This document shows positions 45,767-49,307 of a stretch of DNA of 64,000 bases, piece after piece; position 1 is the first letter of the stretch, and each line of letters starts with the position of its first letter. Made by a program: the position numbers and the translations under genes. Source of the DNA: an uncultured Bacteroidota bacterium (GTDB lineage Bacteria; Bacteroidota; Bacteroidia; Flavobacteriales; Flavobacteriaceae); assembly GCA_902546095.1 (NCBI GenBank), contig CACCIQ010000003.1:1-64000 (forward strand), in the 5' to 3' direction. The notes below the pieces were generated by a model. The model made no database searches and was not told the DNA's origin. It was given only the letters and a program-made list of their open reading frames with translations.

Positions 45767-46468
45767 TTATTTCTGAGCAATATATATTGTTGAAGCTCCA
45801 AAGAACTTTTCTTTAAATTTAACGTCAACAAAACTTGAATCCAAAAGTATTTTTTTAAACTTTTCTCCGAACGGAAATATTTTAGCTGAGCTTTTTAAAT
45901 AAGAATAAGCTTTGAAGTTTTTTGAAAATAATTTACCAATAAGTTGTACATAAATTATAACATAAATGCTATATATAAAATTGATAAATATATTTTTTGG
46001 AAGTGAAGTTTCTAAAATAATTAGTGTTCCATTTTTTTTTAGTACTCTATATATTTCATTTAATCCTTTATTAAGATTTTCAAAATTTCTCACACCATAC
46101 CCAACTGTAACTATATCAAAGGTGTCATCTGCATATTTTATATTTTCTGCATCACCAATATCCAAACTAATTTTTTTACATAAGTTTAGGCTATTAATCT
46201 TTCTTTTACCTATTTCTATCATTTTTGAAGAGATGTCTAATCCAATAATTTCACAGTTTTTTATGTTAGATAACATTATTGCAATATCAGCAGTTCCAGT
46301 TGCCATATCTAATATTTTTCTAGGATTCTTTTTCTTAGCAATTTTTACTATTTCACTTTTCCATTTATTATGCAAGCCAAATGTTAAAAGATTATTGATC
46401 AAATCATATTGACCTGAAATTGAATCAAACATTTCCTTTGTTTCATTTTTAGGTCTATTCAAATTCAT
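45767..46468 (-). CDS. ubiE: Demethylmenaquinone methyltransferase UbiE/MenG
   Basis: This enzyme makes menaquinone from demethylmenaquinone. The 233-residue protein has the MFDSISGQYDLINNLLTFG N-terminal signature, the SAM motif ILDMATGTADIAI near residue 55, and the family motif TVGYGVRNFENLNKGL near residue 120 with RVLKKNG. Length is normal. As flavobacteria respire with menaquinone, MenG activity is expected. The ATG overlaps the upstream methyltransferase stop by four bases. Confidence 0.95.
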   Translation of the reverse strand: MNLNRPKNETKEMFDSISGQYDLINNLLTFGLHNKWKSEIVKIAKKKNPRKILDMATGTADIAIMLSNIKNCEIIGLDISSKMIEIGKRKINSLNLCKKISLDIGDAENIKYADDTFDIVTVGYGVRNFENLNKGLNEIYRVLKKNGTLIILETSLPKNIFINFIYSIYVIIYVQLIGKLFSKNFKAYSYLKSSAKIFPFGEKFKKILLDSSFVDVKFKEKFFGASTIYIAQK

Positions 46469-47088
46469 ACATTGATTTTTTTAAGAACTGAAAAAAGGAA
46501 ATTTTGGGTTGTATTAAAAGGAGTTGAATGATCTATTTTAAATGAATTTAACAGAGTAAAGCTCTCAATGAAAGTTGTTTTAATTAAAGATTCTGAATAG
46601 CGAGAGACCTCTAAACCACTACACTTTAAAGGTCCTTGTTCAGAAAATGTTCCTATTATTAAATATCCATTATTTGAAATATTTCTTGAAACTAAATCAA
46701 CATATTTTTTAATTTGATTTTGGTCAGTTAAAAAATGAAATACAGCTCTATCATGCCACACATCAAAATTTTGTTTTGGCTCAAAGTTTAAAACATCTAC
46801 AACAATCCATTCTATATTTTTTGATTGTTCACCCAAAAAAATTTTTGATTTCTTTGCAGCTGATTCAGAGATGTCTAGATATGTCAAATTATTATATCCT
46901 TGCTCAATCAAGTTCTTAAAAAGTCTACTTCTTCCACTCCCAACGTCTATGATTTTTGATTGTTTTTTTATTTTGATGCTATTAATAATTTCAATTGATG
47001 TATTAGGGGTTTTTTGAAACCAACTAACCTCATCTTCATTTTTATTCAGATATATATTTTCCCAATGATTCTTTAAATTATTGTTCAT
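46465..47088 (-). CDS. Class I SAM-dependent methyltransferase
   Basis: A 207-residue methyltransferase: SAM motif IIDVGSGRSRLFKNL near residue 45, the acidic YLDIS loop near 70, DVLNFEP and then a WHDRAVFHFLT segment and a GTFSEQGPLKCSGLEVSRY block, a pattern of an uncharacterised TPMT-like methyltransferase group. Substrate unknown; the coupling to ubiE may be only operonic. Confidence 0.85.
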   Translation of the reverse strand: MNNNLKNHWENIYLNKNEDEVSWFQKTPNTSIEIINSIKIKKQSKIIDVGSGRSRLFKNLIEQGYNNLTYLDISESAAKKSKIFLGEQSKNIEWIVVDVLNFEPKQNFDVWHDRAVFHFLTDQNQIKKYVDLVSRNISNNGYLIIGTFSEQGPLKCSGLEVSRYSESLIKTTFIESFTLLNSFKIDHSTPFNTTQNFLFSVLKKINV

Positions 47089-47117: not shown

Positions 47118-47294
47118 ATGAGTTTTTTTGATAAATATTTTTTCGGTTATCTGCCAAAAAAAACAAAGGACATTGTTAGGTTAATTTGCCTACTGGTTTT
47201 ATTGTTTCTTATTTTTGAAATTGCAATTACATTTATTTTTATAGTTTTTGTAATTGGAATTTTATCTAGGATTTTAATGTATTTTTTTAAATAG
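47118..47294 (+). CDS. Small membrane protein, 58 residues, unknown
   Basis: An ATG at 47118 opens 58 codons to TAG at 47292. The product has a basic amphipathic start (MSFFDKYFFGYLPKKTK) and one long, possibly two, hydrophobic segments (about 21-56) rich in Ile, Leu and Phe. It is the only coding content of this gap and overlaps the convergent nuclease gene by eight bases. Confidence 0.5.
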   Translation: MSFFDKYFFGYLPKKTKDIVRLICLLVLLFLIFEIAITFIFIVFVIGILSRILMYFFK

Positions 47295-48060
47295 ATTTTT
47301 CTCTGGCCTTTCTAATTAAAAATTCTGTTTCCTTTATTAAATTAGGTACTTGTAGATGAAAGTATGTGTGATATCTAGGGTGTAAAACTAATATGTTCAT
47401 TGAACTAACCTTTTCTCCATAGTTGTCTTCTAAAATATATTTATATAAGTTTTGCTGCAAGCAATATTTATTATAACTATTATTAGATAAGTTTTCTAAT
47501 TCATCATATCCGTATTCAAAATCACTTTTTATTATTGTGCCAATATCATTGACTAGCTTAGTAGTTCTTTTCCAATCAAATATAAATAACTCACCATTTG
47601 GCTTTTTATAAATCATATCAATTGTGCCTGCAATTGAAGATTTTGAATCGAAAACTTTCCATTCTGTTTTATAAGGCTCAATTGTTGGATATTTATTTAT
47701 AAATTCTTTAAAAAAATTAAACTCAGGTGGAAATTCCTCTTGAGCTTTTTGATTATAATAATTCTCAATTGATTCATGTAAAAAGGTACCTTTTTTTGCA
47801 GAATCTTCTTTTTTTAATTCCCATTCATTTAAGATTATTTTTTGGAAATTATCAAGATTATCCTTATCAATTTTTTTTCCAAGAAACTCTAACTTTTCTT
47901 TTGCCTTAATTCTTGACCAATACTCAGAGTCAAATTTTGGGAAAAAGTTATCAATAATCTGGGTTACAGAATATTTAACTCTTATTCCATCAACAGCGTA
48001 ATAATGTTCATTAGAATTAAAAGTTATTCTATTGTCATTTGGATGTAAATTAACCTTCAG
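47287..48060 (-). CDS. PD-(D/E)XK nuclease (RecB/Cas4-like) without a canonical start codon
   Basis: A continuous minus-strand frame runs from a stop at 48073-48075 to 47287, but the first ATG is at 47616, in the middle of the domain. Upstream codons from the candidate CTG at 48060 encode a clear RecB-like nuclease: GTFLHESIENYY (His and Glu), then AGTIDMIYKKPNGELFIFDWKRT (catalytic D...D-x-K), then QQNLYKY (motif Q-x-x-x-Y) . The N-terminal part (YYAVDGIRVKYSVTQIID) is also coding-like and matches the start of such proteins. So the real gene is about 257 residues; how it starts is open: CTG, a rarer codon, or an N-terminal defect. No frameshift is needed. Confidence 0.72.
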   Translation of the reverse strand: MKVNLHPNDNRITFNSNEHYYAVDGIRVKYSVTQIIDNFFPKFDSEYWSRIKAKEKLEFLGKKIDKDNLDNFQKIILNEWELKKEDSAKKGTFLHESIENYYNQKAQEEFPPEFNFFKEFINKYPTIEPYKTEWKVFDSKSSIAGTIDMIYKKPNGELFIFDWKRTTKLVNDIGTIIKSDFEYGYDELENLSNNSYNKYCLQQNLYKYILEDNYGEKVSSMNILVLHPRYHTYFHLQVPNLIKETEFLIRKAREKSI

Positions 48061-48128
48061 ATTAGTAAATATTTAAGTATTAATGTGCCAAAATATACCT
48101 AAATTTACATTATTATAACTTCTTAAAT

Positions 48129-48353
48129 TTGAAAAAAATCTTTATACTTCTTTTATTTACTATCGCCTCGTGCAGTACCTATAACTGCGGGACAATAGTT
48201 GATAAATATGAAATGAATGGCACATATTTTTTTACATTAACTTCAACTGGTGGTGCTCAAAATGCTGAAAATCCAGGAGGAGGTGGTCAAGTAGAAGTAA
48301 CTAGAGATACATATAATTCTTTTATAATTGGCGAAGAGTATTGCAATGAATAA
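48129..48353 (+). CDS. Small lipoprotein, 74 residues, unknown
   Basis: TTG start at 48129 gives a lipoprotein signal (MKKIFILLLFTIASC); no ATG is available. The mature part is short with a Gly-rich stretch (NPGGGGQVEVTRD) and four cysteines, two near the N-terminus and one at the end (EEYCNE). It lies three bases before the barrel protein gene, so the two form an operon. Family unknown. Confidence 0.6.
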   Translation: MKKIFILLLFTIASCSTYNCGTIVDKYEMNGTYFFTLTSTGGAQNAENPGGGGQVEVTRDTYNSFIIGEEYCNE

Positions 48354-48974: not shown

Positions 48975-49307
48975 TTAATACAATAAAAACTTTTTGCTTT
49001 TATTTTTCCAGCCTGCCTGCGACTTATATTTTACAAAATATATTTTTAGATCACTTTGAGAACTGTAATCAACAAAGTAGATTTTTTTATCAGATTGTGA
49101 TGAATAATCCACAAAATACCATAAACCTTCATTGCCTTTTGCTTGAGACTGATAATCAACTTTGAAGACATTCAAATCAGCCTGAGATTCATATCCTACA
49201 ACATAAACTTTTATATCTGATTGTGAAGCATAATCAGTTGAAAACACCTTTTGGGAATAGGACTTATTAAAAAATATCAATAAAAAAAATAAAGTTAATT
49301 TCTTCAT
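48975..49307 (-). CDS. DUF6150-like repeat protein
   Basis: After a signal peptide (MKKLTLFFLLIFFNKSYSQ) the 110-residue product consists of six imperfect 13- to 16-residue repeats of the form Y-x-S-Q-(S/A)-(D/K)-x-x-(V/I)-(Y/F)-x-V-x: DYASQSDIKVYVV, YESQADLNVFKV, YQSQAKGNEGLWYFV, YSSQSDKKIYFV, YSSQSDLKIYFV and YKSQAGWK. This is the pattern of DUF6150, found in Bacteroidota. The repeats may form a small beta-solenoid; function is unknown. Confidence 0.78.
   Translation of the reverse strand: MKKLTLFFLLIFFNKSYSQKVFSTDYASQSDIKVYVVGYESQADLNVFKVDYQSQAKGNEGLWYFVDYSSQSDKKIYFVDYSSQSDLKIYFVKYKSQAGWKNKSKKFLLY

Follow-up and report, generated by a model that had tools for sequence, protein, structure and literature searches.

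Among genes of bacterial chromosomes that begin at non-canonical codons, the closest described counterparts of the gene considered here are infC, which encodes IF3 and starts at AUU, AUC or AUA, and Streptomyces sigR, which starts at GTC. The start of infC in S. aureus is reported to be AUA (PMC13009471), and infC autoregulates in E. coli. Repression of non-canonical starts by IF3 is reported for sigR, which was missed by automated annotation, has an extensive ribosome-binding site and is described as proven at the bench (PMC5472188). CTG starts are rare yet on record. In a comparison of 36 genome triplets, a switch from UUG to CUG is reported for 1 of 2468 ancestral UUG starts (PMC5622118), so that a CTG start must be considered rare a priori, and initiation complexes of E. 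coli are described as less stable on CUG than on AUG, GUG or UUG (PMC11497404). No CTG-started gene from Bacteroidetes appears in the titles or abstract openings among the literature matches listed; most matching papers fall outside these, which leaves absence unproven.

The gene compared here with these systems lies on the minus strand of the window, by which we mean the whole 64,000-nucleotide stretch of DNA, from an uncultured marine flavobacterium, that was analyzed. Reading its ORFs places a nuclease in a stop-to-stop open frame of 261 codons plus stop (47287..48072), which follows an upstream TAA at 48073-48075, stays open from 48072 down to 47290 and ends with the stop codon at 47289-47287. 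The first in-frame ATG, GTG or TTG is an ATG at codon 153 (47614..47616, minus strand), which lies inside the catalytic domain, is preceded by 152 codons of frame and is not the start; translation from it would give a fragment of 109 amino acids. These readings agree with the original prediction, which had found no ordinary start ahead of 47616, had pointed to a CTG at 48060 (codon 5, 48060-48058) and had argued that starting at 47616 removes the His motif and the first Asp; His99 and Asp152 would indeed be lost, and Asp166, Lys168 and the QxxxY motif would stay. Gene callers limited to ATG, GTG and TTG would thus yield the 109-residue fragment or nothing.

A lead of this length without an ordinary start exceeds chance. 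Among the 66 stop-to-stop ORFs kept in the window, the other 65 have at most 28 codons before their first ATG, GTG or TTG, against 152 in the nuclease. A larger survey of ORFs of at least 100 codons covered 464 kb, or 43% of the genome, made up of the window and 20 further stretches of 20 kb each, and 390 of the 401 ORFs kept there have at most 30 codons ahead of the first ordinary start. Eleven have more than 30, with the nuclease the longest and prfB (RF2), at 94 codons, the second. The prfB frame (L134:15296-16327, minus strand, on contig C5 of the window's genome) opens after a stop and matches TIGR00020 with 465.5 bits; prfB is known for programmed frameshifting, for which such a lead is expected. 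A Pfam scan of seven of the ten other long-lead ORFs, omitting the three shortest, found a domain in four and no match in three. In three of the four the domain lies downstream of the first start (M23 peptidase, biotin/lipoate ligase, NUDIX), and solely in prfB is it cut. From the scan and the frameshifting of prfB it follows that the nuclease is the sole unexplained case among the ORFs checked, which were drawn from 43% of the genome; beyond that share, infC was covered.

By its sequence and predicted structure, the frame encodes a complete RecB-family nuclease. It scores 24.4 bits against PF12705 (PDDEXK_1), above the gathering cut-off of 22, and the phage exonuclease profile phrog_298 matches residues 11-252 with E 4.8e-28. 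In an alignment of 64 sequences (61 of the 80 relative loci, the window's copy, L021 and L022), H99, D152, D166, K168, Q206 and Y210 are invariant. A conserved His, Asp, Asp-x-Lys and Gln-x3-Tyr are the motif roles of RecB-type nucleases. L047, L053 and L067 were dropped from this alignment because each holds a single in-frame stop within the matched stretch, which may reflect decay, error or a match overrunning the end; 16 other loci were also left out. AlphaFold, run from the 64 sequences, gave a model with pLDDT 92.2 and pTM 0.89, with values below 50 for residues 1-5 only. Its best solved fold matches are human MGME1 structures (5zyt, 8xa9; Z 14.4 over 181 residues, rmsd 3.2 Å), followed by AddAB, AdnAB, RecE and Cas4 folds at Z of about 10-11 (next group 11.1). 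The fold is thus shared with MGME1 and the RecB-family exonucleases, although identity to MGME1 is 17% and profile searches of the PDB sequences gave no match at E 0.1 or better. No helicase domain accompanies the nuclease domain in the 261-codon frame, which sets the protein apart from the RecB/AddAB helicase-nucleases. Cas4 carries four cysteines for an iron-sulphur cluster. The original prediction had called the protein RecB/Cas4-like, and the RecB-like fold class stands; Cas4 shares this fold (Z about 10), but our protein has one cysteine (residue 204), scores 14.8 bits with TIGR00372, whose cut-off is 65, and drew only weak Cas4 matches from PADLOC, so the Cas4 identity was rejected. Some relatives (L020, L044, L050, L051 and others, among them records from Flavobacterium and Nonlabens) are not stand-alone; there the nuclease domain forms the C-terminal end of a frame that already runs for roughly 180 to 900 codons before reaching it.

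The history of the start was followed in a sample of 23 genomes of the genus, 55-87% complete. Loci such as L023-L025 apparently duplicate genomes of this sample (identical coordinates and identity) and were counted once. The gene is present in 19 of the 23 genomes, with no in-frame stop in any copy. Four of these copies form a subclade made up of the window's genome, G020, G017 and G005. All 15 copies outside it have, as their first ordinary start, a TTG placed 20-25 codons ahead of the conserved His23. Inside it, the window's genome, G020 and G017 have no ordinary start before His23, whereas codon 7 of G005 is an ATG. In the nearest relatives (G019, G001, G013 and G010; L005-L008), the TTG aligns with a TTT at codon 2 of all four subclade genomes (48067..48069 in the window, minus strand). 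In a tree built from 18 genus copies (the nineteenth, L017, was omitted) and three others, the four subclade copies group together with support 100/99, which points to a single loss of the TTG. Among more distant stand-alone relatives, L043, L045, L083, L096 and L052 (51% identity) have an ATG near the same place, and L040 and L041 (about 55% identity) start with TTG; starts could not be read in L042 and L063, which are truncated at the edge of the available sequence, or in L078, which aligns only from residue 75. Because the relatives' starts fall at about codon 2, the N terminus is set by homology and the codon alone is missing. The ancestral start of the genus was most likely TTG, judging from these alignments. 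A conserved ATA ahead of the TTG was considered as the true ancestral start and rejected, since relatives vary there among ATA, ATT, GTT and CTT; within the subclade, codon 1 is ATA in the window's genome and AAA in the other three.

Substitution patterns suggest that the whole frame has been translated and used. In codons 1-152, the stretch ahead of the first ATG, the window's copy gives dN/dS of 0.11 against G020, 0.14 against G017 and 0.13 against G005; in codons 153-261 the values against the window's copy are 0.03-0.08. Binomial tests at kappa 1, 2 and 4 found fewer nonsynonymous changes in codons 1-152 than expected under neutrality, with p from 2e-6 to 1.2e-4 against G020, from 2.8e-5 to 1e-3 against G017, and 0.001 or less in all three comparisons with the window's copy. 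Between G020 and G017 the signal is weaker: dN/dS in codons 1-152 is 0.29 (8 nonsynonymous and 6 synonymous changes; p 0.04-0.14, so that neutrality is possible), and across the whole frame p is 0.001-0.015 and neutrality is excluded. Changes in codons 2-22 among the closest three copies are too few for a ratio. Such tests had been proposed in the original prediction as a sign of purifying selection, and on their evidence the nuclease is a real gene under selection. Since the window's copy, G020 and G017 all have no ordinary start, the simplest reading is that their common ancestor had none either and that production and use of the protein have continued from then on. With its ordinary start lost and the whole protein evidently under selection, the gene most likely uses an unusual start codon, probably CTG.

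Four triplets in the window's genome are candidates: ATA at codon 1, CTG at codon 5, GTT at codon 7 and ATA at codon 16. We favor the CTG at 48060, with somewhat better than even confidence, for its rarity, its sharing and its position; it would open a coding sequence at 47287..48060 (minus strand) for a protein of 257 amino acids, the first five residues of the frame being those modeled with low confidence. It is the sole NTG codon before His23 and is common to the window's genome, G020 and G017, which have no ordinary start; codon 5 is CTT in G005, and the nearest TTG relatives have TTA where it stands. CTG is a rare Leu codon here, at 1.4-3.1%: the window has 43 among its 1580 Leu codons, the 464 kb have 357 among 11374, and gene positions 2-8 have 5 among 369.

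The start-context evidence for this CTG is mixed and not decisive. It has A at -3, -6, -12 and -13, a combination matched by 1.9% of 17752 inner codons. Ribosome profiling in Flavobacterium johnsoniae is reported to link A at these positions to strong initiation (PMC6847099). All four A residues occur in just 3 of 63 presumed window starts chosen by rule, and the codon-16 ATA has all four as well. A 20-nt motif built from the same 63 starts gives the CTG a score of -0.67, under the first quartile of the starts (0.15), and the codon-2 TTT a score of 0.31. No Shine-Dalgarno sequence was seen by eye upstream of the CTG; the lack of one is usual in this phylum. Between G020 and its TTG relative L005, codons 5-15 hold 7 synonymous and 2 nonsynonymous changes and codons 1-4 hold 0 and 3 (Fisher p 0.045, for one chosen pair and with the TTG to TTT change included). 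The window's copy and L007 differ in codons 1-4 by 1 synonymous and 2 nonsynonymous changes; in codons 5-15 it differs from G005 by 4 and 3 (p 0.054) and from G020 by 0 and 1. This pattern fits a start near codon 5, if weakly.

The main rival to a CTG start is a functional gene that begins at one of the other non-canonical codons, which we consider an appreciable but clearly lesser possibility. The genus evidently uses ATA as a start, since all 19 copies of infC recovered have it, and ATA might serve at codon 1 (48070..48072, minus strand), but this triplet is AAA in the three neighboring genomes of the subclade. Codon 7 (48052..48054, minus strand) occupies the position of the ATG of G005 and is ATT in G020 and G017, but it is GTT in the window's genome. 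The ATA at codon 16 (48025..48027, minus strand) might be reached by reinitiation, because it overlaps the UAA of an out-of-frame ATG mini-ORF of four codons, MTIE*; each of the four subclade genomes has a mini-ORF closed by this stop, and the context of the ATA has the four A residues. Starting there, however, would drop N8, H10 and D13, each at least 90% conserved in 21 aligned sequences (D13 also in the 64), and in comparison with the TTG relatives codons 5-15 have the look of coding sequence. A frameshift from an upstream start was examined and rejected, as no out-of-frame ATG, GTG or TTG between -120 and +60 opens more than 22 codons in any of the four subclade genomes; a -1 slip out of MTIE* would depend on a slippery sequence, and none was seen by eye. 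Errors do occur in single-cell and metagenome assemblies in general, but that one of sequencing or assembly erased an ordinary start here is the least probable reading of all: four genomes share the codon-2 TTT, and the CTG and the missing start recur in three that differ from each other nearby. The original prediction would have given way had homologues started with an ATG lost here by error; the other genus homologues use TTG, and the change is common to four genomes.

Besides a rare start codon, the original prediction had offered start loss with decay. The first option is supported, with CTG as the most likely codon, and the second now looks improbable. A decaying pseudogene, its frame open merely because the loss is recent, would account for the 152 codons without an ordinary start and for the ratio of 0.29 between G020 and G017. 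However, the loss of the TTG is common to four genomes at a dS of about 0.6 to G005, the frame is stop-free in all of them, the ratios against the window's copy indicate purifying selection on both parts of the frame (an ordinary start may have lasted part of that time), and the whole-frame comparison of G020 with G017 speaks against neutrality. That selection acts on nothing but a 109-residue product begun at ATG 47616, and that this alone is made, is harder still to credit. Codons 153-261 are more conserved than codons 1-152 in every pair, as this would predict, but the earlier codons are themselves under purifying selection, and the product would lack both His99 and Asp152 along with a large part of the predicted core.

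The explanation we consider likeliest overall, with rather more confidence than doubt, is that the gene works, encodes a small MGME1-like DNA exonuclease of the RecB family and, its TTG having been lost, starts at CTG in three genomes. The ancestral TTG would have become TTT once, in the ancestor of the four sampled genomes. In the G005 lineage the ATG at codon 7 is probably a relocated ordinary start, and in the other three, the window's included, initiation by fMet-tRNA would most likely occur at the CTG of codon 5 and give the 257-residue protein. Its fold and motifs suggest an enzyme that binds DNA ends and degrades them during replication or repair. A non-canonical start of the nuclease is further supported by comparison with infC, which was found in 19 of the 23 genus genomes (L104-L122; in the window's genome L112, G000:C1:122876-123376). 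In all 19 copies the region between the upstream stop and roughly codon 30 contains no ATG, GTG or TTG, and an ATA that never varies precedes a conserved GCA codon, so that infC in this genus evidently starts with ATA. We infer that the lineage uses odd start codons. The infC codon is conserved in every copy found, whereas the nuclease shows the non-canonical state in just three genomes, all of one subclade. Like sigR, the nuclease escapes automated annotation, but it has no extensive ribosome-binding site of the sigR kind, and its start is a prediction from sequence.

Expression of the nuclease is probably low. With no Shine-Dalgarno sequence, and with IF3 selecting against codons of this kind, low and IF3-sensitive expression would be expected, as published work on E. 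coli, Streptomyces and S. aureus suggests, and a link of the nuclease to IF3 may be proposed on these grounds. A more speculative scenario, which we think doubtful, is that, in a phylum whose ribosomes do without Shine-Dalgarno pairing, the CTG start arose with no compensating ribosome-binding site after a weak TTG was lost, and that low output is maintained by selection and tied to the level of IF3, itself governed in this genus by an AUA start, so that nuclease dose would follow initiation fidelity. One gene in one genus offers a natural experiment, with TTG in 15 genomes, ATG in one and no ordinary start in three. The case would permit a direct test of weak start finding by ribosomes without Shine-Dalgarno pairing, an open question in Bacteroidetes.

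The neighborhood of the gene bears on its origin. In the nearer relatives, one side is flanked by a SAM methyltransferase gene, the next gene downstream in the window (46465..47088, minus strand), and by ubiE. In much of the genus the other side holds a divergent small lipoprotein-like gene (identified by eye; 48129..48353, plus strand, first start TTG), a gene with no Pfam match and a gene for a DUF6150 protein; in L027-L029 the lipoprotein-like gene is on the opposite side, past ubiE. None of these neighbors lies within 3 kb of the gene in L040, L041, L043, L045 or L052. Since the neighbors are kept through much of the genus, they argue for a resident chromosomal gene and not a passing phage gene; the profile match is shared with the phage exonucleases of phrog_298, but in the flanks examined the nuclease sits among genus-conserved neighbors. 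Viral contigs were unhelpful here, as 32 pattern matches yielded one relative, at 26% identity. Two matches to the lipoprotein-like gene stand side by side in several relatives, and the DUF6150 protein (48975-49307, minus strand) consists, by eye, of short repeats of the type YxSQSDxKxYxV.
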